Origin: Stentor roeselii
Lineage: Eukaryota > Ciliophora > Heterotrichea > Heterotrichida > Stentoridae
NCBI GenBank assembly: GCA_006503475.1
Contig: RSEH01000031.1
Location: 124,001 to 188,000 of the forward strand
Length of the DNA: 64,000 bases
Reading direction: 5' to 3'
Position numbers and translations under genes: made by a program. Shown here piece after piece: positions 1,000 through 37,165 of this stretch; position 1 is the stretch's first letter; each line of letters starts with the position of its first letter. The notes below the pieces were generated by a model that was given only the letters and a program-made list of their open reading frames with translations, did no database searches and had not been told where the DNA came from.

Positions 1000-2749
1000 A
1001 CCACTCCCTTTGTAAGAAGCCTTCTCAATATTCCGACTCCAGTTCTTCTAAACTCAGTCCATCATCCAGGAATCTCAAATTATCAATTCAAAGCCTTTGT
1101 AACATCAGACATTTTCCCTTGAAGTTCATATCGATGATAATAGCCTGATTATTCTTCATATTTTCTAAGTTTTTGATTGAAACTTCTAAAGAGATCACCT
1201 TGTTAAATTTCTTTTGGTTATAAACAGTTTTTCATATATAAATAGAGCTCGTTATAGTTGTTTATTATAGCTGAATAAGTAGAAAGTCTTTACTTGGTTA
1301 TTTTTAACACTAGTTGTATGTGTTCAGGTTCAACTACTGATACAATCGAATTAGTATATCAGTTATAAAACTCTGAAACAAGTTTATTTGATTTATTAAG
1401 CTGATAAAGTTTTAAGTGAAAGAGGTCTTGAAACAGTTTTTTACGATTGAAGCAAGTCTATAGATCTTGGATGTTGAATGTACAGACTGATTTTTTTTAT
1501 TTTCATTTTTCGGTTTTTCTTATATTTCGATTTTTAATTATCATTTGCTGATTAGTTTGTTAAAAAGTCATAGTTAAATAGATTGCACAAAAAAATTATA
1601 TTAAATAATTTCTTATATTTCCAAATTCTAAAAAGTAGTTCGATTTATTAATTCTTGATAGAGATTCTTTAATAGAGGGAATATCATCAAAGTTCCTTGA
1701 GTGTACTAATTAATTGTCTGTTTGATTTCTAATAATATAAATTTCTATCATTCTTTCTTATCCAAAACTGAAAATACTTAAGCATTAAAATTTTCTTCCA
1801 CATAAGTAAATTTTTCTTGAACAATATATTATTTTTCTTATCTCCAACTCAAAGAAAGTATTCAATGTTTCCTTTTTTTCGATAAATTATTTTCTGTCAA
1901 TATACTCAATTAGTACCTTGACTGAATATAGAAAATTTATATATTCAAGGATTTGATCAATGTTTGATTTTTACTTTTGATAAATGATTCTATGGAAAGA
2001 AGATGACAATACCTGAGCAAATTTTTCTGAATTCAAATTTCAAATTTTTAAATTTTTATACTTTCTTAGGAAAATATAATTCTTTTTTAATTACCACTTT
2101 TCACGTATGAGTAATTCTTTCATTTGAATAATTTTATGCCATTGAACTCGTTGATTTTACTAGCCCAAGATACCAAATCTTCTTGTCTGTTAATGATGTT
2201 TATTAACACAGAAATACAAAAATGGTCGCTAAGGTCACTTGATGAGGGTTGAGTCGATATAATATCGTTATTTATATTTGAAATAATTCAAAATATGGTT
2301 TTTATATCTGGAGTATCTGCTTAATAGGCTTCTGGTTTACTTAAAACATCAGAACTGGCTACTTTTGTGTAGCCTGATTTTTTTTATTATTTTAAGGTGT
2401 AAGATCACGGTTATGATATCTAATTCAATCCTTTATTGTATTAGGAGCAGAATTATTCTTTAATTCGAAACATTTGTCCAAATCTTCCTAATTATTTTCA
2501 CATAAATCATAATAACATTATTAACTTATTTTCATATTTTAAATACTTAAAATTAAGAATTATTTCTGGGTTCAAGTCATCAGAAATTACTTTCAATATT
2601 ATTTCTGAATCAGAGTAATTACTGTCGTGAGACTTATGAAACTGAGTCACTTGAGATTTAAGACAGCCAACTACTCTATCTTCACTTTTTTGCTTACCTT
2701 CGGAATCATTAGTAACCCTTTGAGTAAGAAGTCTAGCTCTTATTTTCAA
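1000..2749 (-). pseudogene. Decayed gene, family copy B
   Basis: The first 80 codons (2749-2507) are open and begin like copy A at 145. Beyond that the frame is broken in several places, but coding blocks can still be read in order on the minus strand. A block near 2260 contains a DHFCIS...NIINRQEDLV-like stretch, one near 1170 has IKNLENMKNNQAIIIDM, and one near 1050 has FLDDGLSLEELESEY. Each block has a clear partner, in the same order and at almost the same spacing (about 1.1 kb between the first and second), in the relic at 35070-37165. Parts of the two relics are alike at the DNA level, for example around 1890-1990. Function is unknown. The 3' limit is approximate. Confidence 0.6.
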
Positions 2750-2953
2750 TTTATATTCTGAATTTATATTACTAAAAAATTCAATTAGGATAAATATTTA
2801 TGATCTGAAAGGAACAAAACTTTACCAATTAAAGATAATAAACGATTTTATATGGAATCTAAAAATCGATCAAGATAATTTAGAAACGCTTGAGTTTCTG
2901 TGAAATTATTCATTCTCATTATTAACTAACTACTTCTAACCCATAAAGATTTT

Positions 2954-4291
2954 TTAATTGGTAATTTTCTTAGGAAAATAATTTTCTTGATTCAGTATTT
3001 TTAAAAACTCTTGATTTGTGGGTATTTTGGAAAAGGTAATTTGATTTGCCTTTTCAAATTTTTTGACTAATGTTTCCTGATGTTCACTATTTAAAAGTTG
3101 CATAGTTATATTACGAATGACATCATCGTAGGGTTGCAAATTATCTAGGAAATCCTTTGTGGGTAAAAATTCAGAACTTTTGAAGCTAAATATAGACTTT
3201 AATTCATTTGGCAACAATCCATCTCTTTCTAAATTCAGCCTTATAGAATCAATGATATTTTCATCAGTAGTTTTACTCTTTATTTTGGTATTTCTTTTTG
3301 ATTTTTCTTGATATTGTATATCAGAACTGAATACTAATACATGAAAGATAGTTTCTGGATTGACTACTTGTTTTATAAATCTAAAGAAAGCTTTTTTTGA
3401 GTTCAATTCTAAATTTTTAGGCTTTATAAGATTGACTTTTATTGTTTTGGATGATTTAAGCCATATGAACTCAATAGAACCGAAGTAAATTTTAGAAAAA
3501 ATTGTGCTAATAGAAGGTTGATCACATTCTAAATGAAACTTAATTAAAGAATTCTCTTTATCGTATTCAACACTTAAAGTCACCTCCATAAATTTCTCTA
3601 AGAAGGGTGATAATTCTAATATATATTTTTCTTTTTTATCATTTTTACTATTAAAGAATGTTTCAAAATTTTCTTTGAATGTTTTTGGAATTTCTTTAAT
3701 TCCAGAATCAGTAATCGATGAGTTACTTCCATCGATTTTCATATTAAGCATCGAATTTTCTAATAAAAGTTCTTCAAGTTTAAACTTTGATCCTTCAAAT
3801 GATAATTTTGCAAATTTGAATTTTTTTTTTGAAGTATCTTCCTTATTAGGACTTTTGTTATAAGGTACATTTTTAGAAGGACCTTTTGTACTAGAATCAT
3901 TTTTAGAAGAGCATGGTCTTTTATAAGGTAATTTCGATTCTTCCTCTTCATCCTCATAGATATTCTCTTTTATTTCTTCATCTCTTAAAGGTAAATTTTG
4001 ATTATGAACTTCTGGATTCATATCTTCATCCAATACCGGCTCAATAAGATAATAAAATATGTCAGGATGACGTTCGCTTGATCGGGTGAAAAAAGTTCCA
4101 TTACTCTGGTCTATAGATTCTAAGTTTTGCAATAAATCATCATAATTTTCGTTGGCCTTGAATGTATTATTATGCTTTGACTTAGGCATTTCCTCATCAG
4201 CATCATTATCCTGAGGGTCTTTGTCTTTCATTTCATTGTCAGTACCAGTATCAGAAGTGATCTTATCTGAAGGATGAAAGGAATCTATCAT
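2954..4291 (-). CDS. Hypothetical acidic protein, paralogue of 4984-6153 product
   Basis: An uninterrupted 445-codon frame. The first 140 residues or so are acidic and low in complexity (Asp, Glu, Asn, Lys), followed by a Lys/Ser-rich linker. The C-terminal 230 residues look folded. This part aligns by eye with the neighbouring gene at 4984-6153: a FMEVTLSVEYDKE block near residue 235 matches FMEDVNVIVHFTE, and NPETIFHVLVFSSDI near 315 matches DPRVIFYHMFEDVLDV. I recognise no known domain, signal peptide or membrane segment. The gene lies directly beside decayed copy B in the AT-rich end. Its intact frame suggests that it is under selection or young. Confidence 0.6.
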   Translation of the reverse strand: MIDSFHPSDKITSDTGTDNEMKDKDPQDNDADEEMPKSKHNNTFKANENYDDLLQNLESIDQSNGTFFTRSSERHPDIFYYLIEPVLDEDMNPEVHNQNLPLRDEEIKENIYEDEEEESKLPYKRPCSSKNDSSTKGPSKNVPYNKSPNKEDTSKKKFKFAKLSFEGSKFKLEELLLENSMLNMKIDGSNSSITDSGIKEIPKTFKENFETFFNSKNDKKEKYILELSPFLEKFMEVTLSVEYDKENSLIKFHLECDQPSISTIFSKIYFGSIEFIWLKSSKTIKVNLIKPKNLELNSKKAFFRFIKQVVNPETIFHVLVFSSDIQYQEKSKRNTKIKSKTTDENIIDSIRLNLERDGLLPNELKSIFSFKSSEFLPTKDFLDNLQPYDDVIRNITMQLLNSEHQETLVKKFEKANQITFSKIPTNQEFLKILNQENYFPKKITN

Positions 4292-4983
4292 TTTTTTATT
4301 AATGTTTTATATACGCAAAAATTTCTTACATCCATGTTAGAAAGATGAAAACTAAACAAGCAAAAAAAAATTTTTTTTTAACGATTTGATTGATTGCAAA
4401 AAGATCATCAGAGGTGAAAAATGATCGATTGGGATTTAGGAATCAAAAATCTCTCGAGAATTATCGGAAAATAGAGAGTAATCAAAATTTTGGATGTAAA
4501 TCAAACTTTTTATTGCTTACTCCTCTGCAGATGCTTCATCTCTCTAGATACAAATATATTTCAGGTTGAAGCACAAGGTCGGAAAAGATTCGGGCTGCAC
4601 TAAGACTTTGGTCATTTAAGAATCGAATAGGATTAATCAATAGGAATTATTTGTGAAGCTCGATGAGTTATGATTTTATAATTAGATTTAAGGAAGCGAT
4701 TTCTCAGATAAGAAAATTCAGATTGCTAGATGTTTCAGAAATAGATTTATAAGCAAAAGTAAAATTTTATATATAAATAGGGTTAGGATTTTTTAGATAA
4801 GAATGGGATATGAGATTTATTATTTCTTGTAATTTATACTAATGATTATATATCTTATAAATAGGATTAGGATTTTTTGGATAAGAATGGGATATGAGAT
4901 GTATTATTTCTTGAAATCTTAAATCAGAACCTATGAAAAGATTATGAAGCCTTAAAGATATTCAAATTTAATAATACTCTAAA
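4292..4983. other. AT-rich intergenic stretch
   Basis: About 690 bp between two minus-strand paralogues with no coding frame I can support. It contains the direct repeat at 4773-4914. The part next to 4291 probably holds the promoter of the gene at 2954-4291. Confidence 0.5.
4773..4914. repeat. Imperfect direct repeat, two units 84 bp apart
   Basis: A block of about 57 bp starting ATAAATAGGGTTAGGATTTT at 4773 recurs with few changes at 4857 (ATAAATAGGATTAGGATTTT). Both continue through GATAAGAATGGGATATGAGA and end near TATTATTTCTTG. The copies are separated by about 27 bp of diverged AT-rich DNA. This looks like a local tandem duplication. It is not a telomere array. Confidence 0.75.
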
Positions 4984-6153
4984 CTAACTATTGTTAATTT
5001 TCTTAGTTTTTCTATCTTCATCAAACAAATGACTACAAATTTCAATAAGGTAATCATCAGAAACATTATCAATAAATTTATAATATCCAGCATTTTCTAA
5101 AGAATTTAAAAAATATGACTTTTGTTCTTGAATACAAATTTTAAAAACCTGATTTAAAGCAGGATTTAATTCCATTTTTTCAGATAATTTTTCATAATAA
5201 ACTTTATTCGGTTTGAAATAAGCCTGAGTTGTGACATTTAAATTTTTAATCATAACATCTAGCACGTCTTCAAACATATGATAAAAAATAACTCTTGGGT
5301 CAAACTTTTCCTCAACTTTTCCAAGATATTCAAATTTGGGGCAAGGTCCTTTCGCTAAATTTTTCAGTTTGATCAAATATTTCTTTTGAAAATTTTGCTT
5401 ATGGAATTTAAGTTTAAATAATTTGATATTTTTTGTTTTTTTACTGTTATCATCATGGCGAATATACAAAGTTCCAATAATGATCTTTTCAAAGACTTGT
5501 TTAACTTTTGAATCATTAAGTAACTGAAGTGTTACGAAACCTTTCTTAAAATTCTCAGTAAAATGAACTATAACATTTACATCTTCCATAAACCTATTAA
5601 GGTGGGTATTCATTTTAATTTTGAATTTTGTATTTATTGTAATATCTTCTTGACATTCGAATGGATATTGAAGATTATCAAAGGAATCAGGCCATATCAC
5701 ATCACCAATTTCTATAATTTTAATTTTTTTTTTCTCTTGTTGTTTTATGAATGCTTTTAATTGAATTTTAGATGACTGATAAATTGATAATAAGGATAAG
5801 ATACCTGTGATTTTGATATTATTGATTTGTTGAGTGACTAAGTGAATATTATTTCTGTTGTCTGGATCATTATCCAACTGTTCTATCTCTGCATCATAAT
5901 CCAACTGTTCTATCTTATCAATTTCATTACAAACAATATTAACTCCAGTAGTATCCTTAGTACTTCTACAATCCTTCAAACTTCCACCTCTGCATCTTTC
6001 ATCTTCTTCAACCTGATTAACTTCCCCATCATCTTCCTTTTCTTTAAATTTCTTTTTCTTCCCAGGTCCATCAAGTTCACAATCCTCATTTCCCAAACCT
6101 TCCAATTCCCAACCAAACTCTTCTGTAGCTTCAACACTCTCAAATATATCCAT
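4984..6153 (-). CDS. Hypothetical acidic protein, paralogue of 2954-4291 product
   Basis: An uninterrupted 389-codon frame starting MDIFESVEATEEFGWELEG. The first 100 residues are acidic with a short Lys run, and the remainder is rich in Ile, Lys and Asn. Two blocks (near residues 190 and 285) align with the neighbouring gene at 2954-4291, so the pair is probably an old tandem duplication. No known domain is recognised. The gene is divergent from the SHIPPO-like gene at 6269, with 115 bp between start codons. Confidence 0.6.
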   Translation of the reverse strand: MDIFESVEATEEFGWELEGLGNEDCELDGPGKKKKFKEKEDDGEVNQVEEDERCRGGSLKDCRSTKDTTGVNIVCNEIDKIEQLDYDAEIEQLDNDPDNRNNIHLVTQQINNIKITGILSLLSIYQSSKIQLKAFIKQQEKKKIKIIEIGDVIWPDSFDNLQYPFECQEDITINTKFKIKMNTHLNRFMEDVNVIVHFTENFKKGFVTLQLLNDSKVKQVFEKIIIGTLYIRHDDNSKKTKNIKLFKLKFHKQNFQKKYLIKLKNLAKGPCPKFEYLGKVEEKFDPRVIFYHMFEDVLDVMIKNLNVTTQAYFKPNKVYYEKLSEKMELNPALNQVFKICIQEQKSYFLNSLENAGYYKFIDNVSDDYLIEICSHLFDEDRKTKKINNS

Positions 6154-6268
6154 TATCCCTAAAAAAACCCTAAAAATCCTAAATTAAATCCTCTAGCATC
6201 AAATATGTCAAAAGCCCAAAAAACACCCCTTCAACCTCTAATCATCTCCAAACTCCCTAATAAATAAA
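6154..6268. promoter_or_regulatory. Divergent intergenic region
   Basis: A 115-bp spacer between divergent start codons at 6153 (minus) and 6269 (plus). On the plus strand it is strongly A+C rich (runs of CCCTAAAAA and CCCAAAAAACACCCC type), as are other regions upstream of plus-strand genes in this window. No defined element could be identified. Confidence 0.35.
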
Positions 6269-7390: not shown

Positions 7391-7398
7391 AATAATTA

Positions 7399-10564: not shown

Positions 10565-10567
10565 TTA

Positions 10568-13500
10568 TTAATAACTCACTCTACTTCTCAGTTTCAAGTA
10601 GCTCACCATGAAAAACCCTTCCACTGCCAAGGTAATCACAGCAGTAAACAACGCGACCTGCCAAGTATCACTACTAACCTCAAACAAAGCAAGACAAAAA
10701 ATACAAATGATCATGAGTGGTGCACTAACAATGAAAACATTCAAATACGACAATTTTTCAAGAGGCATTCTAAACCTAGTCGACATTCCCAAAGTCTTAC
10801 TTTCTGTAGTCGCAGGTAGTCCAAAGAGTCCTGAGTAAATAATCCTTATAAACTGACAACCAGTCATTAAAACCACGAGTCTCACCAGTAAATATGAATA
10901 ACAATGAATAGTCTTGTAGTATTCTAAACTCGCACTTTGAAAACTCAGAGGCTCCAAGTGCATTAAAATGAAAACAGCCCCCAAGGAACTCGTCCCTATC
11001 AGCAATGATGACGTCAAAGGAACTAAAAGTCCTGAACCCACGTGGCCTGAAGACCAAATCGAGGCCAATAGGAAGACTTTGCATGTGAATAAAAGGATAC
11101 TGAATAAGGATAAACCTGAAGCACCTGCCTGGTAACAGTCGTTACGGATCAATGATCCTAAAAGTAAAATGATGCAGATTAACAAGAACTCCACTATTAA
11201 TGGATATATCATGAAGGCGGACTTTGATTTTTTTTTTTGATTTTCAGACTTTTCGCATTTGTTTGATTGTGATGAGTAGCCTGATGGACAGACTGATACG
11301 CATTGGCTTTCGTGCAGGTAACCTTCGCTGCAAGATGAGCAATCATGCTTGGATGAGCACTTGTTACACCCTGGAACACAATCAACACATGAACCTGAAT
11401 CTAAATAAGTCCTATTCGGGCAAGTTTCGCAAGAGTTTAAATAAAATCCGAAGCCTTCCTCACATGATGTGCATTCAGTCGCTGTGCAAGACAAGCAATT
11501 ATTCGGGCAGATTACTTCACAGGTCTTGTTGACTTCTTTTGTGCCTTCAGGACATGAACTTAAACATGATCCTTCGTATTTAATTGCTTCTTCTTTGCAC
11601 TGTTCGCAAAAATCTTTGCTTTTGCAGGAAAGGCAGGAATCTTCACAGGATAAACAAGTTTTTTCACTGGGGAAATAACCTTGAGGGCAATCTTCGATGC
11701 AGGTTCCATCAAAATGATTACCTTTGAGACAACCTTCGCATTTTTCTCCCTTGCATTTCGTGCAGTTGTCAGGGCAATGAAAAACACAGATTGAGTCAAC
11801 AGCGTCGTACCCCAAAGGACATACGCTGACACATTTTTCATTTAATAAAAATGAATTTTCATCACATATAGAACAAATTTTTGTACTTTCACATGTAGTG
11901 CAGTTTTCTGAACAAGATTGACAAGTCTTGTCGTATTCGAAAAATCCAGAAGGGCATTCATCAATACAACTTCCTTCATGATTTATTTTATTCTGTTGAC
12001 ATTTTTCACATGTTTCAAGTGACTGGCAAAGCTCACAACTATCACCACAAAAATTGCAAACATTCTCATTATCAAACATACCATCAGGACAATAATTAAC
12101 ACAAATTCCTTGATTCAAAATAGTTCCATTTTTACACTGCAAGCAAAAATCACTATTTCCCTTCTGACATTTGATGCAATCCACGTCATTACACTCCACT
12201 TCACAATGTCCTAAAACCGGTTTATATCCAGCAGGACACATTTCAACACATTGAAAATTATCAGTCAAAAGCAAATCATTTTCACATTTAAAACAAGTCT
12301 TAAAATCCTTACAAGTCAAGCACCCTGTCATACATTCAGAGCAATTCGACTCATTAGGAAAAGTACCTGAAGGACAAGACGAGAGACAAGTATTGTTCTC
12401 ATATTTTAAATACCCTTGATTACAACTTGTCACACATTGATCAAACTGCAAATAAGTCTCTCCTTTACAACTAGTGCAAGTATTGAAAGAACTGCAGTTT
12501 CCACAGGACTCGTTGCATACTCGGCACATGTCTTCTTCAATAAAAAGATGACCTGAACAATCAGAAGCCTTCAAACATTTTCCTTCTTTTTTTACCATCC
12601 CTGAAGGGCAGGTGAGGCTGCAGGTATTGTTAAACAAGTAAAAACCTGAGGCACAGACTGAACAGTTACTTTGAGAAGAGCAGGAACTACATTCATTTGG
12701 ACAGGAAAGGCACCAGTCTTTGTTTATATATTTTCCTGAAATGCAGTCCTCGGTCTTTGTGCAGAGTCCTGCCTCGGCTTTGAGGTAGCCTTGAGGACAG
12801 TTGGAGAAACAAGTTGAATTGTAAAGGAATAAATTTTGGATGCAGGATGTGCAGTCGATTGAATTTGAACAGGTTTGACATGAGGAGTTGCATGGAAGAC
12901 AGTCTTTTGAATCTAGTGTTATGTAGTTTTTATTGGGACAGGACGATATGCAGAGATTTCCTGAACTTCGATAGTATCCTGAAGGGCAGATCTCCAGACA
13001 AGTCCCTTGATGTAGATATCTTGAACCTGAACAGCTAATGCAGTCGTTTTGAGAGGTGTCTGTGCAGGTTGCGCAGGTTGAATCGCAACTTACACATTTT
13101 TTTCCCTTGAGAACTGAGATGCCCGGAGGACAAGCAGCCACACAAACTCCATTATTGATGATTTGTTCATAATAATAAGAAAGACACCCATTACAACTAG
13201 AAGCACTCGAGCAAGCACTACACTTATAATAACAAGAGCTACAAACAGCCCCATCCCAATAAAACCCAATCGGACATTGCAAATCACATGATCCAGTAAC
13301 AATAGAAAACTTATACCCATTAATACAAGAAAGGCAAAAATCCGGACTTTTACTACAAGTCGCACAAGGTGCAGTACATGGACTATTTAAAACACAATCA
13401 TTTCCACTTTGACTAGTCCCCACAGGACAAAAAGCAACACAAGCCCCATCAGTCTTATAAAGACCATCAAGACACGTAAGGCAAGCATCAGCCTGATGCG

Positions 13501-16500
13501 AAGAGCATGTCTTACAAGTGAAATGACACTTCAAACAAGTATAAGGCTGAGTGACAGTCAAGAAGTACCCATCATCGCACTTGGCAATACAAGAGTACTC
13601 CTGTAAAAAAGGGTTATTACTAGGAATCAAGCATTCATAACAAACTGACCCAGAACATTTACTGCATTGACAAGAAACAGCAGGCGGGTAGTAAGTAACT
13701 TGAAGAATTGGAGACTGATCCACCACGAATCCATTCGAGTCCTTTAAAGTAATTCGAAAGCCGGTGAAAGAAATCGGTGATGATGGGTTCGTGATTACTG
13801 AAACAAGTACTCCTACCATGATGCTTCCTTTTATTGTTTTTGAAAAGCCGTTTCTTATAGTCACGATATTAGAACTCTTGGTACAACTCAGGGTCTCTTC
13901 AATTGACAGGTACTCGGAACATGAAAGACTTGAAACTAACAAACCACTTGCAAGGGTCAAGTCGATTATCGCTCCTGTAGTTACACTATGCTCAGTTGTA
14001 AAAACCACTCTATAAGTACTGCTTATTGAAACTGTTGGGTCGACAGGGTGTATATCAGAATTAAAGATCTTGCCCGGGGTGAAAGCAGAAATCACTGAAC
14101 TCACATCAGCAGAACCTGAGTCAATCAAACTGGAATAACGAGAACTCACTGATATTATCCCTGATATCGTTATCACTGAATCAGGGTTCTTCGTGCCAAT
14201 TATTGTCAAGTTCACAGTACTCCCTGCTAAACATTCAGATTCACAATAATCAATTATTTTCAGGTCAGTTAAAGACCCGGAGTACTGCAAAACTTTCGAA
14301 CCTTTCAAGATCTGAATAGAACTTTCAGTCAATAACAAATTTTCTGGAAACTTGATCATGATTTCACCTCCTGCTGGAAGTTTCGAAGCGATTTTAAATG
14401 AAAAATTTACCGTTGTCGAGGCACTTACCACGTTACTAGTCCTGGTAAAGACAAAAGAAGAGACAGTATTCGGCTGAAGACTTTGAATAGACGACACCAA
14501 ACTTCCAGTCTCGATTTTAAAGTTAGAAAAAAGTACAACATACGAGAAATTTCCAGTCACATTCGCAGTAGTAGTAGGATTTTTCAGTCCCATCACCCGT
14601 AAAGAGAAGAAAGTCCCTGCAGGGCATGAAGAGCTGCAAAGACTTACCTTGAAACTTCGAATACTTCCATTAACACCCAGTTCATACGAGCAGTCAACAG
14701 CTTTGCCTGAAGACAAGCAGGTCACTGAGGTGGAAGGAAAGACCAGAGACCCTGGAAGGACTATCTGCACTGTTGAACCTGAGACGTAGTCGACTAATGA
14801 AGTGAAGGACACTGATAATGAACTGTCCAGTTGCACTGTGTCCCCTGCTCTTGAGATCTGCCCTGATGAGGACCTTGTTGATAAGCTCGGCTGGAATTGC
14901 CCGGCATTTGTCACTAAGTCAATCACTGCAGACATTGAAGGGTTGTAGGTGTAAATCCTTATTTGCGATGATAATGATGGGTCTAAGTACATCGGGTTAC
15001 GCAGACCTGTCAGGTTTAAAGAAAATGATGTTCCACTTTTACAGCAGTTGTTGCAGGATGTGTCTGTTGAAGAACACCATTCTTTTAGGATTAGCTCTTG
15101 AGTGTCTGGGTCTTGTGATGAGGACTTTGAACAGAGGTTTGTGTTTGAACTTGCCTCCGTGCATTGGATACCGGATGTTTCTTGGAATTGATCTGATGGA
15201 ATCACTAGCTTTATATAGGCTCCTGATGGAATTGAGGTTGATGTTGTGAAGGTTAGTGTGAATGGACCTGGGTCAGTCACAAACTCCGAAGCACGATTTT
15301 TGCTCTTAACAGAAATCAAATTAGGATTAGCAGTAAAGTTAACAATCTGTTCATTCATACAAATAAGTGTATTCGCCGAAGTATACAAGTAAAGTTTCAA
15401 GAACTCCGTAGTCTGATTATTCGGAGGGTTGATAATACTAGTAAACCGAATAGCAACAGTTTTATCAATTTGAGTCACCAAGTTCGAAGTAAACTGATTA
15501 TTCGAAACAGAGCAACTAAGTGAAGGCGACGTTCCAAGTCCTCCTGCATTGATGCAAGCTGAGTTGCTTTGAACAACATAAGTCGAAGGAAAGACCAAAG
15601 TGAAGTAAAACTGACTCGTATAAGAACTATCATAAATATCATTCGAGAAGTAAAACGCGATTTGAGTTGATGCCAAAACAAATCTATTCACCGGGATATA
15701 CCCCGTCAAAGTAATCGCACAAGGATGTATCGCACTTATCATAAAAGTCCCTTTTTCTATCAACTCATTCGATGAAGTCGATGAAAAGATAGAACCTGAA
15801 GAATATCCAACAAATCGAGGGTTCTTCACCTGTGATATATTTAAAAATATCTCAGAACCTGCAGGGATCAAGGATGATGAAAGTCCAGTCAATGTAATTG
15901 ACTGGCTGTTTATATTAACACCTAAAACTTTAGCCTGTCCTCCAGTGACCTGCCCATAGGCCAAGGTTTCTGCAGCAGTTCTCAGGCTTGAATCTGAAGT
16001 AAAAGTTATAATAAGCCAGCCATTTGCAGGGATTATTTTAGATGAGGTAAAAGTTAGACTGTAAGTTGACCATCCTCCTACTTTTAAATTGTCTTGATCA
16101 AAACGATTGCTTGTCATGTCGCAAGGGCTGAAATAATTGTTTGCAAAAGTGTATGATATTGAAAATGATGCAGTTGAGGACCCTTCGTAATAACCAAACA
16201 TTTGGATCGTGCCCATGTTTGAACTTGAATATGCAATGCTGGGGTTTGATACGAGACCCACTTTGAAGGTTATTATCACTTCTATTGTTTTAGGAGTTAT
16301 TAAGGTCAATTTGTTTGGACCGGTTATTCCGCATTGAGCGTCTAGGTCGGAGTCTTGTTGGTTTATGCTTGGATTTGAAGAGTTGTAGACTGTTGTTATT
16401 ATTATTTCAGGAACGTCGACCACTGAACAATAACCAGGTAAAGAACCAATCGACCCCTTCAAAGAAAGTGTCGAAGGTAAAACAATTTCAATCTTAAATC

Positions 16501-16654
16501 TCGCGGGAATTGAAATATAACTATCAGTTAACGCAAGACTAACAGTCAAATTCGTATCAGCCCCAACAGTCTTATTAGCAAAATCAACAGAAGCACTATA
16601 AAAAGCAAAAACATTTTGAATTAAAAGGCAAAAACAGCCCGCCAGGTATTTCAT
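10568..16654 (-). CDS. Giant cysteine-rich multi-membrane surface protein
   Basis: About 2028 residues. The start is placed at the ATG at 16654 (MKYLAGCFCLLIQNVFAFYS), a clear signal peptide; an upstream in-frame ATG at 16702 would overlap the neighbouring gene. Residues 20-985 contain repeated beta-rich units with the pattern FTTxxxIPxGxxIxIxFPxxF and paired cysteines. Residues 990-1800 are furin-like/growth-factor-receptor type repeats (CxxCxxCxxSxxCxxCxxGYY..., each ending in CPxGY). After residue 1810 there are about six hydrophobic segments. This layout is typical of very large ciliate surface proteins; ligand and role are unknown. The stop is 3 bp from the convergent upstream gene, and the start is 13 bp after the stop of the same-strand gene at 16668. 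Confidence 0.88.
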   Translation of the reverse strand: MKYLAGCFCLLIQNVFAFYSASVDFANKTVGADTNLTVSLALTDSYISIPARFKIEIVLPSTLSLKGSIGSLPGYCSVVDVPEIIITTVYNSSNPSINQQDSDLDAQCGITGPNKLTLITPKTIEVIITFKVGLVSNPSIAYSSSNMGTIQMFGYYEGSSTASFSISYTFANNYFSPCDMTSNRFDQDNLKVGGWSTYSLTFTSSKIIPANGWLIITFTSDSSLRTAAETLAYGQVTGGQAKVLGVNINSQSITLTGLSSSLIPAGSEIFLNISQVKNPRFVGYSSGSIFSSTSSNELIEKGTFMISAIHPCAITLTGYIPVNRFVLASTQIAFYFSNDIYDSSYTSQFYFTLVFPSTYVVQSNSACINAGGLGTSPSLSCSVSNNQFTSNLVTQIDKTVAIRFTSIINPPNNQTTEFLKLYLYTSANTLICMNEQIVNFTANPNLISVKSKNRASEFVTDPGPFTLTFTTSTSIPSGAYIKLVIPSDQFQETSGIQCTEASSNTNLCSKSSSQDPDTQELILKEWCSSTDTSCNNCCKSGTSFSLNLTGLRNPMYLDPSLSSQIRIYTYNPSMSAVIDLVTNAGQFQPSLSTRSSSGQISRAGDTVQLDSSLSVSFTSLVDYVSGSTVQIVLPGSLVFPSTSVTCLSSGKAVDCSYELGVNGSIRSFKVSLCSSSCPAGTFFSLRVMGLKNPTTTANVTGNFSYVVLFSNFKIETGSLVSSIQSLQPNTVSSFVFTRTSNVVSASTTVNFSFKIASKLPAGGEIMIKFPENLLLTESSIQILKGSKVLQYSGSLTDLKIIDYCESECLAGSTVNLTIIGTKNPDSVITISGIISVSSRYSSLIDSGSADVSSVISAFTPGKIFNSDIHPVDPTVSISSTYRVVFTTEHSVTTGAIIDLTLASGLLVSSLSCSEYLSIEETLSCTKSSNIVTIRNGFSKTIKGSIMVGVLVSVITNPSSPISFTGFRITLKDSNGFVVDQSPILQVTYYPPAVSCQCSKCSGSVCYECLIPSNNPFLQEYSCIAKCDDGYFLTVTQPYTCLKCHFTCKTCSSHQADACLTCLDGLYKTDGACVAFCPVGTSQSGNDCVLNSPCTAPCATCSKSPDFCLSCINGYKFSIVTGSCDLQCPIGFYWDGAVCSSCYYKCSACSSASSCNGCLSYYYEQIINNGVCVAACPPGISVLKGKKCVSCDSTCATCTDTSQNDCISCSGSRYLHQGTCLEICPSGYYRSSGNLCISSCPNKNYITLDSKDCLPCNSSCQTCSNSIDCTSCIQNLFLYNSTCFSNCPQGYLKAEAGLCTKTEDCISGKYINKDWCLSCPNECSSCSSQSNCSVCASGFYLFNNTCSLTCPSGMVKKEGKCLKASDCSGHLFIEEDMCRVCNESCGNCSSFNTCTSCKGETYLQFDQCVTSCNQGYLKYENNTCLSSCPSGTFPNESNCSECMTGCLTCKDFKTCFKCENDLLLTDNFQCVEMCPAGYKPVLGHCEVECNDVDCIKCQKGNSDFCLQCKNGTILNQGICVNYCPDGMFDNENVCNFCGDSCELCQSLETCEKCQQNKINHEGSCIDECPSGFFEYDKTCQSCSENCTTCESTKICSICDENSFLLNEKCVSVCPLGYDAVDSICVFHCPDNCTKCKGEKCEGCLKGNHFDGTCIEDCPQGYFPSEKTCLSCEDSCLSCKSKDFCEQCKEEAIKYEGSCLSSCPEGTKEVNKTCEVICPNNCLSCTATECTSCEEGFGFYLNSCETCPNRTYLDSGSCVDCVPGCNKCSSKHDCSSCSEGYLHESQCVSVCPSGYSSQSNKCEKSENQKKKSKSAFMIYPLIVEFLLICIILLLGSLIRNDCYQAGASGLSLFSILLFTCKVFLLASIWSSGHVGSGLLVPLTSSLLIGTSSLGAVFILMHLEPLSFQSASLEYYKTIHCYSYLLVRLVVLMTGCQFIRIIYSGLFGLPATTESKTLGMSTRFRMPLEKLSYLNVFIVSAPLMIICIFCLALFEVSSDTWQVALFTAVITLAVEGFFMVSYLKLRSRVSY

Positions 16655-16667
16655 TTTTATAACCCAA

Positions 16668-19367
16668 TCAAGAATGAATACTTTTATTATAAATTTCAAC
16701 AATATTCAAAACGCACTTCAAAACAATCAAGTCCAAATCTTTCCCAAACTCTTTAAACATTTCGAAATATCCACAAGCAACAAAATAACTCGATTTCTCC
16801 AAAACGTCTAAAACCTCTTCAAAATTCACAGGCCCGGCCTCTACAAACTCTTCAGGGAAAATTTCTTTTAAATCACTTGAAAAGACTTCTTCCACAGAGA
16901 GAAACTCGCTGCAGGTTTCAAGTCCTTTAAACCCGCGGCCAGGTCGAAAGAGAGAAGCGATAAAGACCAAGTCGGCCTTTCGGACTGTTTCTGGATTGTT
17001 TTCGCAGGTTAAAGCTTTTAAGATCAGGTCTCCTGTTGACTTTATACATTGAAAATGTTCTTCGTTGATGAGAAGAGCGAAGTTTAAAGCTGCTTCCATT
17101 TCAATCACGCCTTGTTTGTTTAAACGTTTTTTGTCAAAAATTGTGTTTTTTTCAGCGAATTCGGTCAATTTGGTCATTCGGGCTTGTGAAAGGTTTTCAC
17201 TGAAGTAGTCTCGGTAGAACTCGGAAATTCGAATCACTGGGACTAGATTGGTTTCGGAAAAATCGTTGAAGTCTGGCATTAGTCCGAGTTTTGACTTGAA
17301 AACACTGTCGAAACCTGTTAAGTACATGGAAAGACTGTCTTTTACATTTATAAAACTCGCTTCTTTTATCTTTTTGGAGAGGTTTAAGAATTTTATAAAA
17401 TTTTTTATCTTGAGAACTGAACTATTTTGCAATAAATTCGCAAGAAAATCGATAACTTTTCGTTGGACTACTTTTTTTAAGGAATTTTTTGTTTCGAATT
17501 CAGTGTAAACGTATTCTAATAAGTCTTCTGGAACTTCTTCAGCTTTTATAAGAGAGGTGTAGAAGTTGTTAATAATTTTTACAAGCATTTTTCTGCTCAT
17601 TTTCTTTCTTTTATCCAATTCATGAAGACTTTTTTTCATAATGAACTCTCGAACCTTTTTACTTTTGACTTTTTTCTGAATTACGATTTTTTCCCTTCTT
17701 TGAAAGTTGAACTCTTTGAACTTTGTGGTGGTCGCCCTTCTTTTTTTTTCCATTCTCTTGAAAAACGTTTCTTTTTTTTCACTGTCTCTTAAATGTGCGT
17801 CGTCTTTATGCTCGAAATGAAGAGCGACTTGCATTTCTTCTCCTGTCCTTTCGTCGATTTCGTTTATCATATCGTCTTCGTACTTTTTTACTAGCATCTC
17901 GTATTTTGTTAACCGGTTGTTTCGAAGAGTTTCTTCTTCGTCTTCGCTTAACTCGAAACTGCTCTCGTTGGTGTTTAGGTTGTCCATCAACTCTTCTGCT
18001 TGAAGGGCTTCTCGTTGAGCGATGCTTCTTCCTCGGGCTAGACCTGTGAAGTAACCTGCACTCCAGGATATTATTTCAGCGTTTTCGGGAATGTAACCGG
18101 CTTGTTGCAGGTCACGTATTTCACTATCAACTTCCGCACTTGTTTCTTGGTTTTGATTATCGAACACCTGACCGTAAGTCTGAGTTTCTGCGTTGAAATA
18201 TACAAAGCTGAGCATTGTTTCTTTATCAGATGTCTCAATAGAGGTTTGGATTGATTTGTGCGATTTACAAAGTTCTTCTTGGTCGTCGAGTTTTTTTTTC
18301 TCAAGTAAGTGCACGGACTTGAACTTATCGAGAACTTGGAACTCAGACATGATTGCTTTGGCGAGATTTTTGTCTTTCAAAAGGTTTTTGTTATTCAAGT
18401 CCATGATGCCTCCCACTTTTTTCTTCAAACTATGAATAATTTTCTCATAGTTTTCCAGATATTTTTTCGGTACCTCCTCTCTAATAATCTTTTCAAGTTG
18501 CAAGTCCTTAATCTTAATTTCCTCTTCATTATCCTTCAACCTAGCCTTAAGCTGTATAAACATTACACTCAAAATTTTCTGCTTAGCCTTTTTAGCCAAA
18601 GTGACAAATTCCGATTTCTGTTTCTCCAAATCCCTAACAAGTCCCTGAACAGTCCTCTCCGACTTGGCAGCCTGTACAACAAGCAAAACTTCCCAATATC
18701 TTTGATACCCAGTGAAAAGTTTATTAACCAAAAGTGAAGTTTCATTATTTCTGCTCCTAATAAGCATCAAAAACTTATTAAGCGCTTCCTTTAAAAAGTC
18801 CTCAGCACTTTTAAGTGCTTTTCCCTGTTCTTCACTATCATTTTCAAAGAAACTCTTCTCAACATTCGCTCCAATCAAAGTTTTTTTAATAGTAAAGTCG
18901 AACCACTCAGTCAAATGAAGAGCTTCAGACTTCTCCTGGACTGCCTTTTCAAAAATCTTCAGTTCTTCACGAATGCTGAGCCTTACAGGGCTTTGTCCTT
19001 GTTGGTTAAACTGTTTCAGTTGGCTTTTCGGGTTCATAAAAGCATTTAAAATATTTTTATTGGCGTGCTTTATTTTTACCAGGTTTCTCAAAAACTTGTC
19101 GGTCGCTGATGGACTTATTAATGATGAGTCTGAGGTTTTTAAATTTGCTTTTGGACTTGATAAACTTATCACGTCAGCTGATAAACCTGATGGACGGTGA
19201 AGGGGAACTTTTGGAATTTTTAAAGCGTCTGAAGATAAAAATTGTTTTAGGTTGTCTCTTCCTGAACGACCTATTGATTCTAGGTCTTGATTTGAAGGGT
19301 CTGATAGGTTTATGCCTATTCGAGATTTTCTATCAATTATTGGACTCAGAGATTTTATGTTTTTCAT
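16668..19367 (-). CDS. Large coiled-coil protein, unknown
   Basis: An 899-residue uninterrupted frame. The first 110 residues are Ser/Pro-rich and probably disordered (SLSPIIDRKSRIGINLSDPS). From about residue 240 there are Lys/Glu-rich heptad-like stretches, an acidic cluster (SFELSEDEEETLRNN), a strongly basic segment (FKRMEKKRRATTTKF) and a helical C-terminus. SIQTSIETSDKET and NAETQTYG resemble the T-Q-T patches often found in ciliary coiled-coil and dynein light chain (LC8) binding proteins. No named family was recognised. It ends 13 bp before the start of the giant surface-protein gene. A cytoskeletal role is inferred from composition only. Confidence 0.8.
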   Translation of the reverse strand: MKNIKSLSPIIDRKSRIGINLSDPSNQDLESIGRSGRDNLKQFLSSDALKIPKVPLHRPSGLSADVISLSSPKANLKTSDSSLISPSATDKFLRNLVKIKHANKNILNAFMNPKSQLKQFNQQGQSPVRLSIREELKIFEKAVQEKSEALHLTEWFDFTIKKTLIGANVEKSFFENDSEEQGKALKSAEDFLKEALNKFLMLIRSRNNETSLLVNKLFTGYQRYWEVLLVVQAAKSERTVQGLVRDLEKQKSEFVTLAKKAKQKILSVMFIQLKARLKDNEEEIKIKDLQLEKIIREEVPKKYLENYEKIIHSLKKKVGGIMDLNNKNLLKDKNLAKAIMSEFQVLDKFKSVHLLEKKKLDDQEELCKSHKSIQTSIETSDKETMLSFVYFNAETQTYGQVFDNQNQETSAEVDSEIRDLQQAGYIPENAEIISWSAGYFTGLARGRSIAQREALQAEELMDNLNTNESSFELSEDEEETLRNNRLTKYEMLVKKYEDDMINEIDERTGEEMQVALHFEHKDDAHLRDSEKKETFFKRMEKKRRATTTKFKEFNFQRREKIVIQKKVKSKKVREFIMKKSLHELDKRKKMSRKMLVKIINNFYTSLIKAEEVPEDLLEYVYTEFETKNSLKKVVQRKVIDFLANLLQNSSVLKIKNFIKFLNLSKKIKEASFINVKDSLSMYLTGFDSVFKSKLGLMPDFNDFSETNLVPVIRISEFYRDYFSENLSQARMTKLTEFAEKNTIFDKKRLNKQGVIEMEAALNFALLINEEHFQCIKSTGDLILKALTCENNPETVRKADLVFIASLFRPGRGFKGLETCSEFLSVEEVFSSDLKEIFPEEFVEAGPVNFEEVLDVLEKSSYFVACGYFEMFKEFGKDLDLIVLKCVLNIVEIYNKSIHS

Positions 19368-21818: not shown

Positions 21819-21822
21819 TTAA

Positions 21823-28854: not shown

Positions 28855-28876
28855 TTATGAAAAAGATTAAAATCTA

Positions 28877-29746: not shown

Positions 29747-30011
29747 AACTGTTTATTTTGGATTTTTTCTTGTGAATTTTAAGATCAGGTTGTAGGAGAT
29801 GGGGTTATAAAGATGGGACTTTTGGGGTTGGTTTGGAAGATGTTTTTATAGTGAGTGATTTATTGGTTATTTAAATAAGATGAGGACTTTGGAACATTAT
29901 TTATTTTAAATTTATTGTAACTTAGAATAATTACTACCCAATTCTTATTTTATTTAAAATCTTACTTATTCCAACCTCTCATAATTTTCTATCTTTTCGC
30001 TGAATCCTCTA

Positions 30012-31910: not shown

Positions 31911-32066
31911 TTTTCAAGTTTATTGTTGGAGATTTTTAGAACTTCAAAAAAAAATCATTAAAATTTTCAAGAGTTAAAAACTTGAAAAATTTAAGAAAAC
32001 TGTTGATTTCTTTAAAATACCTCGAAAACCTAATCATAATGATTTTTCATATTTAAGTAATTTGAA

Positions 32067-32372
32067 ATGGAACGAAAACTTGAAGAGTCCAACAAACGTT
32101 ATTACAACCCAAGCACCAAGTCACTCATGGAAGCTGTAAAAAAACGCAAATTGATTAAAGGGACTGAAAATATTCTTCCGTCCCCTGGACTTATCGGCCC
32201 TGCAGTGAATGAAGCTCTGCCCTGGCCAAAAGAATTCGCTTCAGAAGACTTTGAAAGTCTGACAAAGCTCGCGATTTTAGCTGAACAAGAACGAAATGTG
32301 AGAATCAACAAAGTCACTTATGAGACTGTTCAAAAAGGGTCAATAAAAGAGATAATCAAGGCAAGTGATTAA
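32067..32372 (+). CDS. Small hypothetical protein
   Basis: A 101-residue hydrophilic protein (MERKLEESNKRYYNPSTKSL) with a Pro-rich middle (SPGLIGPAVNEALPWPKEF) and a helical C-terminus (ESLTKLAILAEQERNVRINK). The reading frame, base composition and tight fit between neighbours (156 bp from the divergent kinase gene, 34 bp from the convergent stop) support a real gene. No family recognised. Confidence 0.7.
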   Translation: MERKLEESNKRYYNPSTKSLMEAVKKRKLIKGTENILPSPGLIGPAVNEALPWPKEFASEDFESLTKLAILAEQERNVRINKVTYETVQKGSIKEIIKASD

Positions 32373-32406
32373 TTATTTCAAATAGATACCTTTTAAAGGA
32401 AAATGT

Positions 32407-33231
32407 TTACTTCTTTAATTTCATCGCTTCTTCACGCCATGACTCGGAAAATTCGTCGATTTTTTGCATGAACTCTTCGTGGAAGTTGGATTTTTCTGTT
32501 GTTGATAAGGGAAGACTTGGAACTTTTCCATCTTTTGATGAGATTTTTGGAAAGTCTGAGGAAAGGTCGGATTTTGTCACTCGTTTTAAAGTTTTTAGAG
32601 GAAAATGAAGGTTTTTTGGAATTTGATTTAGGAATTTTTGAGAAGATCCTGAAAGGTTTTGGGAAAATATTGAGTCGTTGAATACATTTTTATCTGGAAG
32701 AAGATTCAACTTAACGACTTTACCGGGAACTGGCTGTTGAAACTTGTTTTTGATTTCGAAGGAAAGGTCACCGATACGGGTTGAGTCTAAACTTTTTACG
32801 TGTTTTTGGTAATTTTTTATGATTTCTTGAATTTTTGAAAAGACTTCGGAAAATACTCGAAAAGTTTTACTGGCTTCATCCAAAAACTCGACCAACAAAA
32901 AAACCTGGTTATCGATATTTTTTTCCATTTCAAGTTTTTTCAGAAATCTATCAAAAACATTCAAGTCAAAAGGATAAGCAGAGTTTTTATTGACAATATC
33001 TGAAATAGTTCTTGTATGATTTGCAAAGTCATTGTTTTTCGAAATAACAATTCGATTCCTAAGGTTGATCTTATGATAATTTTGTGACATTGTTCCCGTT
33101 GGAGTTTCTTTGAGTTTCTCATGGTTGAGTTCATTGACTTTGACTTGAGTTCTGGAAGCTTTGAGGCATCTAGATTCGTTGCTGAATGACCTGGCAAGGC
33201 TATGGACTGGGTGATTATCTGCCAATGACAT
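32407..33231 (-). CDS. Hypothetical protein
   Basis: A 274-residue frame. The N-terminal 90 residues are polar and probably disordered. Residues 90-150 are helical (DNQVFLLVEFLDEASKTFRV), and the C-terminus is Ser/Lys-rich, ending in FSESWREEAMKLKK. No signal peptide, membrane segment or known motif is seen. Confidence 0.68.
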   Translation of the reverse strand: MSLADNHPVHSLARSFSNESRCLKASRTQVKVNELNHEKLKETPTGTMSQNYHKINLRNRIVISKNNDFANHTRTISDIVNKNSAYPFDLNVFDRFLKKLEMEKNIDNQVFLLVEFLDEASKTFRVFSEVFSKIQEIIKNYQKHVKSLDSTRIGDLSFEIKNKFQQPVPGKVVKLNLLPDKNVFNDSIFSQNLSGSSQKFLNQIPKNLHFPLKTLKRVTKSDLSSDFPKISSKDGKVPSLPLSTTEKSNFHEEFMQKIDEFSESWREEAMKLKK

Positions 33232-33588
33232 ACTTTTATTAAGTAAACCTTATCGATCTTTACATAAATTTACGTTTTGGCACTTTTTCGGAATATGCTG
33301 AAATGTTCTATTAAACCAAAAGAGTAAATAATTAAAATCTAGAAAGTTTTTACTTGTTTAAAAAAGACTCCTGGTTTAACTAGTTAATAAAAGGCTGTTT
33401 GAAACAAGATCATCTAGAATAAATAAAAATTTATCGAAAACTATGAAAGTCTTTATAAATTTTAAAAAGAATTTTTTAGTTTCTTGGCAAAATGGAGAAA
33501 TGAATGACTTAAGACTATATCCCAAGAGTTTAACGAAAAATTCTTAAAAACTTTAGAAATAATTAAATATTTTAAAATACTTAAACAT
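33232..33588. other. AT-rich intergenic stretch
   Basis: About 357 bp between two minus-strand genes. I see no coding frame, RNA or repeat. It should hold the promoter of the gene at 32407-33231 and the 3' UTR of the DHHC gene. Confidence 0.5.
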
Positions 33589-34647
33589 CTATATCTTCCA
33601 GAAAGTAACCTCCTTGCACGGCCTACAAAAGTAAACCAAATTTCCTAAAATTCCTTTAGAAAAAGGTGATTTTTCCTTGTTTTCCAAATAATAAATCTCC
33701 TTCCATTTGATGATTTCAAAGGTAGTAACTCCAGCACAAGCCAGGTAAAAATGATAAAACCACAGAAAACTAAGTAAAATTCCAATCAAAAAAGGGCAAA
33801 AACTTGCTAAAACCATCAAATAATTCTCATTCCAAAACTCCTTCACCATCTCTTCCCTATGAATCCTCGAAACAATCAACGAAAACGTGAAAAAACATTC
33901 AAAAGTCTGTACAAAAACAAACCAAAAGAAAAAAAACTTGTTTTTTTCTCCAATACAATTATCAACAAAAGGACAATGATGATCAAACAAAGCAATACAA
34001 ACTCCACATTGTTTGCAATGTCGAGCTCTTAAAGGCTGATCATTAAAACAAGCTGTACAATAAACATAATCAAAATTTTCCACATTTTTTTCCTTTCCCA
34101 CTCCAAGATTGACTGAAACTTCAGCAGAAGGACTTTCAAGTTTCATCGATGGAGGGTCTTGACTGACATCTTCAGATTTTTTCTCTTGTTGCTTGTTTTC
34201 AGGGACTTGCAAATGTTGTGTTAAAGAAGGCTCTTCCTCGTCTTGGATTATGTCAAGATTGATGCTCACTGAATCAACTTGGCTGTCGTGTTGATGAAGA
34301 CTTTCTGATATCGGGTTGCCTTCGAATACTTCGCCTTCTGCCTGGTCTTTGCAGTCAGTGCCTTTGTTTGTCTTGTGAAGTCCTGAAGCCGCTGTCAAGA
34401 TAGAACCGAGAGAAGACTGTTGTTGGTGAAAAGTCACTTCAGGCTTCGTAGTCGAAACTCCCTTCAAATTAGAAATTTTTCCTGGGTCTGAAAAGGATGT
34501 CAGGAAATATAGGATGAATGAAACTCCTACTGTTAACCAGTAGAGGTAAAAAGTAATTGAATCTGGTTTTCTTAATGTCGGTAATAAGAATGTCGTTCCT
34601 GATATATGCAACAAGTGGAAAAGGGTCATGATTATTCGGGCTTTCAT
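33589..34647 (-). CDS. DHHC palmitoyltransferase
   Basis: A 352-residue protein. Two membrane segments lie near the N-terminus, followed by a long acidic cytosolic loop (residues 65-190). The catalytic cysteine-rich domain is intact: YCTACFNDQPLRARHCKQCG, then DHHCPFVDNCIGEKNKFFFF. Two further membrane segments follow, and a TTFEIIKW block matches the conserved TTxE motif of the family. It should attach palmitate to cysteines of membrane-associated proteins. It is the second DHHC enzyme in the window, is not tandem with the first, and lacks ankyrin repeats. The expanded loop between segments 2 and 3 is longer than usual. Confidence 0.93.
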   Translation of the reverse strand: MKARIIMTLFHLLHISGTTFLLPTLRKPDSITFYLYWLTVGVSFILYFLTSFSDPGKISNLKGVSTTKPEVTFHQQQSSLGSILTAASGLHKTNKGTDCKDQAEGEVFEGNPISESLHQHDSQVDSVSINLDIIQDEEEPSLTQHLQVPENKQQEKKSEDVSQDPPSMKLESPSAEVSVNLGVGKEKNVENFDYVYCTACFNDQPLRARHCKQCGVCIALFDHHCPFVDNCIGEKNKFFFFWFVFVQTFECFFTFSLIVSRIHREEMVKEFWNENYLMVLASFCPFLIGILLSFLWFYHFYLACAGVTTFEIIKWKEIYYLENKEKSPFSKGILGNLVYFCRPCKEVTFWKI

Positions 34648-35069
34648 TAGAATTATTATGAAGAGAACAGGATTAAGATGGATGAGGATTTTTTTTTGGA
34701 TTTTTTATGGGTTTTGGAGAAGTGGGGATGAGAGGGTTTTGGAATAGCTTTTAGGGGTTTTAGTGGATTTTTATTGGAATGGTAGAATTTTTTTTGTGAT
34801 TGTTTTAAGTTGGATGGGATTGGTTTTGATGGAGATTTTTGAAATGATTAGAAGGATCTACTGGCGGTTTGAGATGAAAGTGATTGGATTAGGTTAGAAA
34901 GGATTTTGAAATCGCTCTGGGATGGGTTATATGGAATTTTTTTTAGGGTTAACTGATATGCTCATAGTTTTTAGTTATTGATGGTATTTCGAACATTGAT
35001 GATTTAGATAGGAAAATTATTATTGAATATACTTGGATTAGTAAGAAATGATGTTGATTTTGCTATTTT
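34648..35069. other. Intergenic stretch, G+T-rich plus strand
   Basis: About 420 bp upstream of the minus-strand DHHC gene. The plus strand is G+T rich to about 34930 (so A+C rich on the sense strand of that gene), like other upstream regions here. After that it becomes plain AT-rich, leading into the relic at 35070. No gene seen. Confidence 0.45.
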
Positions 35070-37165
35070 TTGCAGGATTCAACCGACTTTAGCATTCATT
35101 TTTGTATTTTTGATGTAATAAAAATAATTAACAGACTAAAAGATTTGGTAGCTTCTACTTGGACAAGCACTGAGTTATCAAACAGCATAAAAAATTATTC
35201 AAATCTAGAAATCAGCGAACTAGTGATAACTAACCAGTCGCAAATAAATAGAAATTTTATTTCCTCAGTAAGTATAAAAATTGCAAATCGAAAAATTTAG
35301 AATTTGAATAGACAAAAGTTTCTAAGCTATTGTCATTTATCAAAAATTGAAATCAAACATTATCAAAAACTTGAACTTAGGAATTTTCTATATTCAGTTG
35401 AGGTACTAATTGAGTACTTTGTCCGAAAATATTTTATCGAACAAATGGGTGCATTGAATACCTTTTTTGAATTGGAGATAAGAAGAATAACATTTTAATT
35501 CAAGGAAAATATACTTCTATGCGAGATAATGGATTTGAAATAAAAAATTTCAATGCTTGACTATTTTAAGTTTGGATACAAAAGAATCAATATAATTTAA
35601 TTGAATATGATCAATTTATAAATCTAACTTGTAGACTTGAAAAAATCTTATATGATATTAAATTTTTATCATCATCTCTACCAAGAATTAATAAATCTAA
35701 CTACGATTCAGAATATATAATAATTAAAATACATTTAAAGAATATTCTTTTATACAAAATGTTTAACTCAGTTAAAACTTATGACTTTTTGATAAATTTA
35801 AACAATTTTCAATTAGAAACCGAAATAACAGAAAATTTGAAAAACGAGATTAACAAAATCAGTCTCTTCATTCAATATCGAATATCTATAAATTTCTTGA
35901 ATTCATAGAAAAGCTGCTTCCAGATTACTTTTACTTCAAATTTATCAGCTTATGAAGCAAAATCACTTGTTTCGGAGTTTTATCACTTATAAACTAATTG
36001 ATTGTATCAGAAGTTGAACCTCAATACTTGAGCACTAGTGTCTACAAATAACCAAATAAAGACTTTTTACTTATTAAGTTGATTTCAGCTATAATCGACC
36101 ATTATGAGAAGCTCTACTCATGTATGAAAGTATCATTTAAACTAGATCAAGAATTTACTAAGGTGTTCTCTACTGAAGCCTTGATCAAGAACTTGAATAA
36201 CATGCCCAATAATCAGACAATTATAATCGACATGTTACTTCAAGGGATAATATCTCACACAACAAAACCCTATGAGTTGATTACTTCGAAGTTCCTGAGT
36301 CATAAAATAAATTTTGAAGAACTGGAGTTGGAATTTAAAAAAAATTTCTTACAGAATGCTCTAAAAAATCCATTCAGAGAATTTTTGATGCAGTTTTTAC
36401 CATCAAACTCTCCAGGAATCAAAGAAAGTTTGGAAGAGATGCTAACAAGAACATACATAGTTAACCTGCAGTCAAACATTTCCGGAGTATCTTGATGCGA
36501 AAAATTGTTCTAATACAAAAATATGAAGGAAGTTTAAAAAAGTATCAACTTTCTACTTTTTTTTTTCATGAAGCAGCACATTATCTTCAAAGAATCAACG
36601 GTACCGTGCTTTGGTGATGCGAATCGATCTTTAGTCCTAACTTGAGTATTGAGTTTGATCCTAGTGAAGATCTTGATGACGACTTTGGCATTTCGAGCAA
36701 CGAAGCAATTTTTGAAAAAATATTGGAGATTAGAGAAGCAGCAATTAAAACAGAAGATAAAGGGAATATAGCATTAGAGGAGGAAAAAAAACAAGAAATC
36801 GTAGAAAAGCAAGAAAAATCAGAAGATTTTGAGAAAAATGAAATTTAAACTGAAAATAAAATCGGAAAACAAATGAAAATGAAGAGAATAAAGAATTGAG
36901 AGAAGTTAGTAATAAAAAAAATAGGAAATCTAAAAAATAGAAGGAGGAAAACTTCTAGAAATAACACTTTTTGGTAGAAAGTATAGAAAGATTACTGCAA
37001 GTGGAGCTGAATTCTTGATGTCAGACTTGGAAGATTATAGTCTACCGAAATTTAAGTCTGAATTCAGCATATTTAATATAATAAGAGATTCAGAAAACTA
37101 CCAAAATTTAAGATCTGGAAATGGTATGGAACTTGGTAGTTGTCCAGGCTTTGGGTATTTTCTAA
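35070..37165 (+). pseudogene. Decayed gene, family copy C
   Basis: An AT-rich stretch where coding blocks persist in order but the frame is broken in several places. The first block (SIHFCIFDVIKIINRLKDLV) and later ones (IKNLNNMPNNQTIIIDM and FLSHKINFEELELEF) match copy B at 1000-2749. DNA-level likeness is evident around 35384-35490. Further on are FHEAAHYLQRING near 36564, an acidic block FDPSEDLDDDFGISSN near 36654, and GGKLLEITLFGRKYRKI near 36945. HEAAH fits the HExxH zinc-peptidase pattern, but no known family is recognised. The start matching copies A and B at 145 and 2749 was not found, so the 5' end may be missing. Confidence 0.6.

Follow-up and report, generated by a model that had tools for sequence, protein, structure and literature searches.

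We identified two relic gene copies, here called B and C, in a 64,000-nucleotide stretch of Stentor roeselii DNA (positions 124001-188000 of contig RSEH01000031.1, here C220; below, the window). The relics are very probably pseudogenes of an active birth-and-death family whose uninterrupted members are found elsewhere in the macronuclear assembly (44.4 Mb in 522 contigs). The phenomenon is real but mostly ordinary, with an undescribed family behind it. The two copies, in window coordinates, are the following.

35079..37158, plus strand: relic C, a probable pseudogene, near full-length, of the HExxH family, long-linker clade.
1011..2242, minus strand: relic B, a probable pseudogene that copies roughly the first 425 codons of the family; the HExxH part is absent.

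B and C are alike at the DNA level, as a first-pass annotation of the window had proposed. With blastn, C 35079-36353 (plus strand) aligns with B 2242-1011 (minus strand) in a single alignment of 1306 columns with 70.6% identity (E 2e-161), and the protein blocks named by the annotation are found in the two relics. The annotation had also raised the prospect that the likeness is nothing but chance matching of AT-rich DNA. This explanation deserves no credence, as the pair scores 557 bits, compared with at most 39.2 bits among 500 dinucleotide-preserving shuffles of B, and no point in its favour was found.

Relic C ends near the place predicted for it, at 37158, and contains an HExxH motif that the annotation did not have. 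It is made up of five frames, all collinear with intact members of the family and separated by four frame changes; there are also five in-frame stops. In the member on C522, the counterparts of frames one and two are residues 5-133 and 164-275 (E 9e-5 and 4e-6, computed among 17 proteins with composition correction off), and the last three frames match intact members from residue 273 to the end by tblastn. In a tree of the 199 alignment columns that a C segment spans, the relic is placed in the long-linker clade (99/98 for the eight-row group and 86/79 for the place inside it, with long branches flagged). The frames and conserved blocks of relic C are listed here.

35079-35490, plus strand: first frame (+2).
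about 35570-35906, plus strand: second frame (+1).
35896-36492, plus strand: third frame (0).
about 36492-36845, plus strand: fourth frame (+2).
36937-37158, plus strand: fifth frame (0).
36184..36234, plus strand: block IKNLNNMPNNQTIIIDM, in the stretch aligning with residues 273-472 of the C40 member.
36567..36593, plus strand: HEAAHYLQR, the HExxH motif kept in relic C, in frame +2, from the family alignment.
36937..37158, plus strand: C-terminal block (GGxLLE..LFG ... GAEFLMSDL ...), with 41-51% identity to four long-linker members by tblastn.

The differences between B and C are those of decayed copies. Mismatches are spread evenly over the three codon positions (69/368, 81/376 and 81/373; P = 0.54 for departure from flatness), and third positions make up 35% of them, compared with 48% in the five closest pairs of long family frames (P = 4e-4). 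Furthermore, 58 of the 60 indels between the two relics are not a multiple of three. Were B and C working genes, with frames broken only by tiny introns or sequencing errors, neither the flat profile nor the frame-breaking indels would be expected. Stentor uses the standard genetic code and has introns of 15-16 nt (PMC9505925), long stretches of C are open, and a 15-nt GT..AG segment covers six of the 23 single-stop breaks between long same-frame pieces in the window. However, none of the five in-frame stops of C lies within a 15- or 16-nt GT..AG segment, which rules out tiny introns as their cause, and we find it scarcely credible that the two relics are functional.

The relatives of B and C are numerous. 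Searched with an open 143-aa segment of C at E<=1, the genome yields 20 places; these include C and B themselves, and several lie in open frames of 579-877 codons. With three intact members as queries and a limit of E<=0.01, the matching stretches number 33, 19 and 40, counting the queries' own loci. In total the family comprises at least 49 loci on 42 contigs: 15 are uninterrupted, 17 are disrupted, and 17 are partial, cut or unclear (loci were merged and classed by hand, the counts are minimum values, and a single short stretch supports some of the distant loci). The uninterrupted members consist of one frame of 564-877 codons. We aligned 17 long frames, including those of C58 and C333, which have broken C-termini and are counted as disrupted. 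A tree splits the long frames into a long-linker clade and a short-linker clade. A 59-nt DNA match on C20 was left out of the count, as its surroundings have no match at the protein level (E<=1e-4).

For the five closest pairs, the ratio of nonsynonymous to synonymous substitution (dN/dS) is 0.31, 0.32, 0.34, 0.40 and 0.36; three wider pairs have values of 0.41-0.43. The family as a whole has therefore not decayed, since in close pairs purifying selection acts on the long frames. The annotation was right to describe a multicopy family, and right to call B and C dead, but the family itself is alive. Similarly, B and C do lie in the two islands to which it had assigned the family, but these are two among dozens of places, many near contig ends. 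In one of these, C333:22469-26260, two family copies lie in opposite orientation less than 6 kb from the contig end, of which one is a long frame interrupted close to the C-terminus and the other is decayed.

One scan revealed no viral relatives of the family. In one scan for prokaryotic relatives, the sole match to a bacterial genome contig (L128, 32 residues) is antisense to an aminotransferase-like open frame and was taken as chance. We found no published account of such a family among titles and abstract openings on Stentor and on heterotrich macronuclear genomes, which is no proof of its absence from print.

The uninterrupted family members consist of an N-terminal half without a known domain and a C-terminal part with HExxH and then ExGxxLExxxFG; the spacer between these motifs differs in length, and in one clade it is long and rich in Lys and Glu. 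The conserved C-terminal blocks are LHExAHYLQR and ExGxxLExxxFG ... FLL ... F ... CG. The HExxH motif is intact in 13 of the 17 long frames. Within the ExGxxLE block, the first Glu is found in 14 and the last Glu (of 'LE') in all 15 of the aligned frames. Gluzincins are defined by HExxH and a conserved Glu block downstream, and the family resembles them in having both. It differs in the nature of the second block (ExGxxLExxxFG), in its very variable spacer, in having no profile match above cut-off, and in being known from sequence alone. Based on these motifs, we put the chances that the members are zinc-dependent peptidases at about even; zinc would be bound by the two His of HExxH and a Glu of the second block. 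Relic B lacks the HExxH part and therefore could not have been a peptidase.

The duplications that gave rise to recent copies are gene-sized. In four recent pairs, the similarity spans the gene together with approximately 180-450 nt upstream and 60-300 nt downstream, although in one of the four the upstream limit is the end of the sequence compared. The C522-C333 pair has a second block of 272 columns farther upstream, at a shifted distance. No terminal inverted repeat is found in the four duplication units, one of which has its 5' edge cut, in agreement with the absence of terminal repeats noted in the first-pass annotation. Of its proposal that a mobile or fast-duplicating gene had spread, gene-sized duplication is borne out, but the tests made give no mobile-element hallmark.

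Worded as a transposon-borne gene that spread and decayed, the mobile-element explanation appears very unlikely to us. It would fit the dispersed and partial copies, the AT-rich surroundings, the gene-sized units with edges close to the gene, and weak single-member Pfam matches to models with mobile-element names (Relaxase_C 0.21, RepL 0.14). However, in addition to the missing inverted repeats, there is no transposase, integrase or reverse-transcriptase model among the Pfam matches listed, and the close pairs are under purifying selection. DNA searches with each relic find only three places each, self included, so there is no set of near-identical relic copies. In the reading that we prefer, the family grows as single genes are duplicated to new places, in gene-sized units and into AT-rich regions that are often near contig ends, and it loses members by decay.

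Relic B is a mosaic. Its direct matches to intact members are weak (E 0.008-0.026 at best), so its link to the family runs through C; tblastn of the 17 long frames at E<=1e-4 recovers C but not B. The annotation had extended B over about 1000-2749. The portion at 1011-2242 is related to C, but the portion at 2256-2758 has no match to C and instead matches a neighbouring gene, A.

2256..2758, minus strand: gene-A-like N-terminus, continuous in frame with the family relic (junction at about 2242-2256); together a probable mosaic pseudogene.
1..141, minus strand: start of gene A, part of an uninterrupted 498-aa frame (C220:122648-124141) that does not belong to the B/C family.

By blastn, A and B are 69.9% identical over 682 columns (C220:123627-124306 with B 2256-2897), and the similarity stops at 2256. 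It extends upstream of the A-like reading frame, from 2758 to about 2897. The reading frame is identical on both sides of the junction. This is suggestive only, because one third of random joins would keep the frame. Gene A itself, the first 47 codons of which are contained in window positions 1-145, was taken by the annotation as a third copy sharing its start with B. The shared start is real, but A is an intact and different gene: its genome-wide matches at E<=1 are itself and the N-terminus of B, and it has no match to C at E<=1e-3. In the order of events that we favour, C would have been a near full-length copy that then died, and in B a duplicate of the upstream region and N-terminus of gene A would have been fused, without loss of frame, to the N-terminal part of a C-like copy.

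Two further open frames occupy the same AT-rich island (island 1), which consequently contains A, relic B, O1 and O2.

2954..4306, minus strand: O1, a 450-codon open frame and distant paralogue of gene A.
4984..6183, minus strand: O2, a 399-codon open frame.

The relationship of A and O1 has a Smith-Waterman z of 9.6, with none of 500 shuffles reaching the score; the scores of O2 with A and with O1 are reached by 30 and 36 of 500 shuffles. O1 has no further match in the genome at E<=0.01. A and O1 are AT-rich orphan frames on either side of relic B. Elsewhere the window contains many long open frames under the standard genetic code. One of them, a large host gene of 2045 codons (10568-16705), appears by eye to be cysteine-rich and membrane-like with many CxxC repeats.

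The family is concentrated near contig ends. Within 5, 10 and 20 kb of an end we find 21, 28 and 38 of the 49 loci, compared with 7.7, 14.2 and 23.9 expected if loci were placed uniformly in their own contigs (simulated P 5e-6 for the 10-kb distance). Restricting the comparison to contigs longer than 60 kb gives 11, 16 and 24 of 35 loci, compared with 2.8, 5.5 and 11.1 expected. The telomere repeats of the assembly are CACCCTAA; those of the heterotrich Blepharisma are CCCTAACA (PMC9942806). Together with the standard code and the 15-nt GT..AG segments, these repeats fit a macronuclear genome of a Stentor-like heterotrich. A telomere-capped end lies within 10 kb of seven of the 49 loci (on C40, C181, C211, C244, C69 twice, and C254). 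One family frame begins 376 nt after the CACCCTAA repeats of C40, and another family piece adjoins those of C181. The start of C181 (L045 1-653) consists of a degenerate telomere-like tract followed by clean CACCCTAA repeats, and a family frame without its N-terminal half starts about 490 nt after these. This arrangement may be a telomere-healed break inside a gene, or an assembly artefact. True subtelomeric enrichment of the family is likely but not proved, because at other ends the assembly may have broken off within repeats. The non-telomeric ends of C164, C84, C339 and C273 seem by eye to stop inside WD40-like repeat genes, and another multicopy family may be breaking the assembly there.

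Several observations weigh against this account of a living, end-linked family with a peptidase-like site. Concerning location, telomere repeats are found at only six of 60 contig ends (120 bases each; C244, C211, C69, C254, C9 and C59), in addition to both ends of C40 and a position near the start of C181, and the loci on C9 and C59 have no contig end closer than 48 and 87 kb, respectively. Proximity to a contig end therefore often means proximity to an assembly break. Additionally, the 17 disrupted loci show no difference from the 15 uninterrupted ones in their distance to the end (Mann-Whitney P 0.88). Concerning selection, the five close pairs take in C58 and C333, with their broken C-termini. 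Furthermore, C 35896-36353 is in frame with intact members, and the 19 B-C indels in this segment thus seem to be on the B side, but the substitutions look neutral in both relics. This tension between frame and substitutions is not fully reconciled; B may be a much older pseudogene and C a recent one, or C may be weakly constrained. Concerning the peptidase, one residue of HExxH is not conserved in four of the 17 long frames (HELAY, HELAN twice, and YESGH), and no family member has a match above the curated cut-off in Pfam or NCBIfam. PHROGs, PADLOC and PDB sequences also give weak matches only. The lowest E for any match is about 0.007, from single members and models without a peptidase name (USH1C_N, phrog_13670 and gop); in PADLOC, gop (0.0067) and PDC-M10A (0.012) each match a single member among 12. 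Peptidase-named matches are weaker: projannalysin 0.088, ATLF 0.089, WLM 0.12, M78 0.13, M90 0.16 and phrog_87, a PHROG metallo-protease, 0.25. The HExxH motif is inside the matched stretch for projannalysin, M78 and phrog_87. Together the peptidase-named matches prove nothing, but are compatible with a zincin-like site.

The islands are more AT-rich than the host genes, as the annotation had stated. Their GC content is 22-31% in 500-nt steps (C220:119000-130000) and 18-36% in 200-nt steps (window 35000-37600), compared with a mean of 38.1% in 14 host genes of the window (36.3% at third positions). However, AT-richness cannot be read as a sign of decay, as the 17 long family frames also have 26-31.5% GC (18-27% at third positions). 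The islands owe their AT-richness to the genes in them, among which A, O1 and O2, all open frames, have 26-28% GC.

The composition that the islands share with other copies, together with the clustering near contig ends, could suggest that the internal islands are former chromosome ends (lost fragmentation sites or fused ends), which keep end-linked genes as relics. Consistent with this, none of the 15 uninterrupted loci and five of the 17 disrupted loci lie beyond 26 kb from an end (Fisher P 0.046), with a cut-off chosen post hoc and with B and C among the five. Yet no interstitial telomere repeat occurs in the islands, and there is no exact double telomere repeat in the examined left part of island 1. 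The sole near-match in the window, a telomere-like GACCCTAACACCCCAA at 43550-43565 with two mismatches, is outside the islands and close to what chance would give (at least one match in 13 of 100 shuffles). Moreover, most sampled contig ends are not telomeric, and gene-sized duplication into the interior accounts for the same facts. We regard former chromosome ends as decidedly unlikely. A broader picture, in which the somatic genome would have two compartments, is also unlikely: GC-richer housekeeping blocks would contrast with AT-rich islands that occupy chromosome ends and a handful of internal sites, themselves former ends, and that host an undescribed zincin-like family. This family would duplicate gene by gene, form chimaeras with island genes (as in relic B and gene A) and undergo decay after becoming internal.

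The reading that we prefer for B and C, as pseudogenes of a birth-and-death family that is still active, has counterparts in other systems. PMC10810533 deals with families specific to lineages of ciliates, heterotrichs among them. The leucine-rich repeat (LRR) families of Tetrahymena (PMC6564038) are also rapidly duplicating ciliate families, and young LRR genes are found in pericentromeric and subtelomeric regions. They differ in encoding LRR proteins rather than HExxH proteins, in being located in germline chromosomes whereas our data concern somatic contigs alone, and in size, with more than 1,000 genes in most species compared with the 49 loci compiled here. The var genes of Plasmodium and the surface antigens of Paramecium are likewise multicopy families linked with subtelomeric regions; the present family differs from them in that its close pairs are under purifying selection.

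The family adds proteins with a metallopeptidase-like signature, unnamed in the libraries searched, to a lineage of giant-celled ciliates. With intact and dead members in one genome, it allows genes to be traced through birth, fusion and death, and the view of AT-rich islands as simply decayed DNA is corrected.

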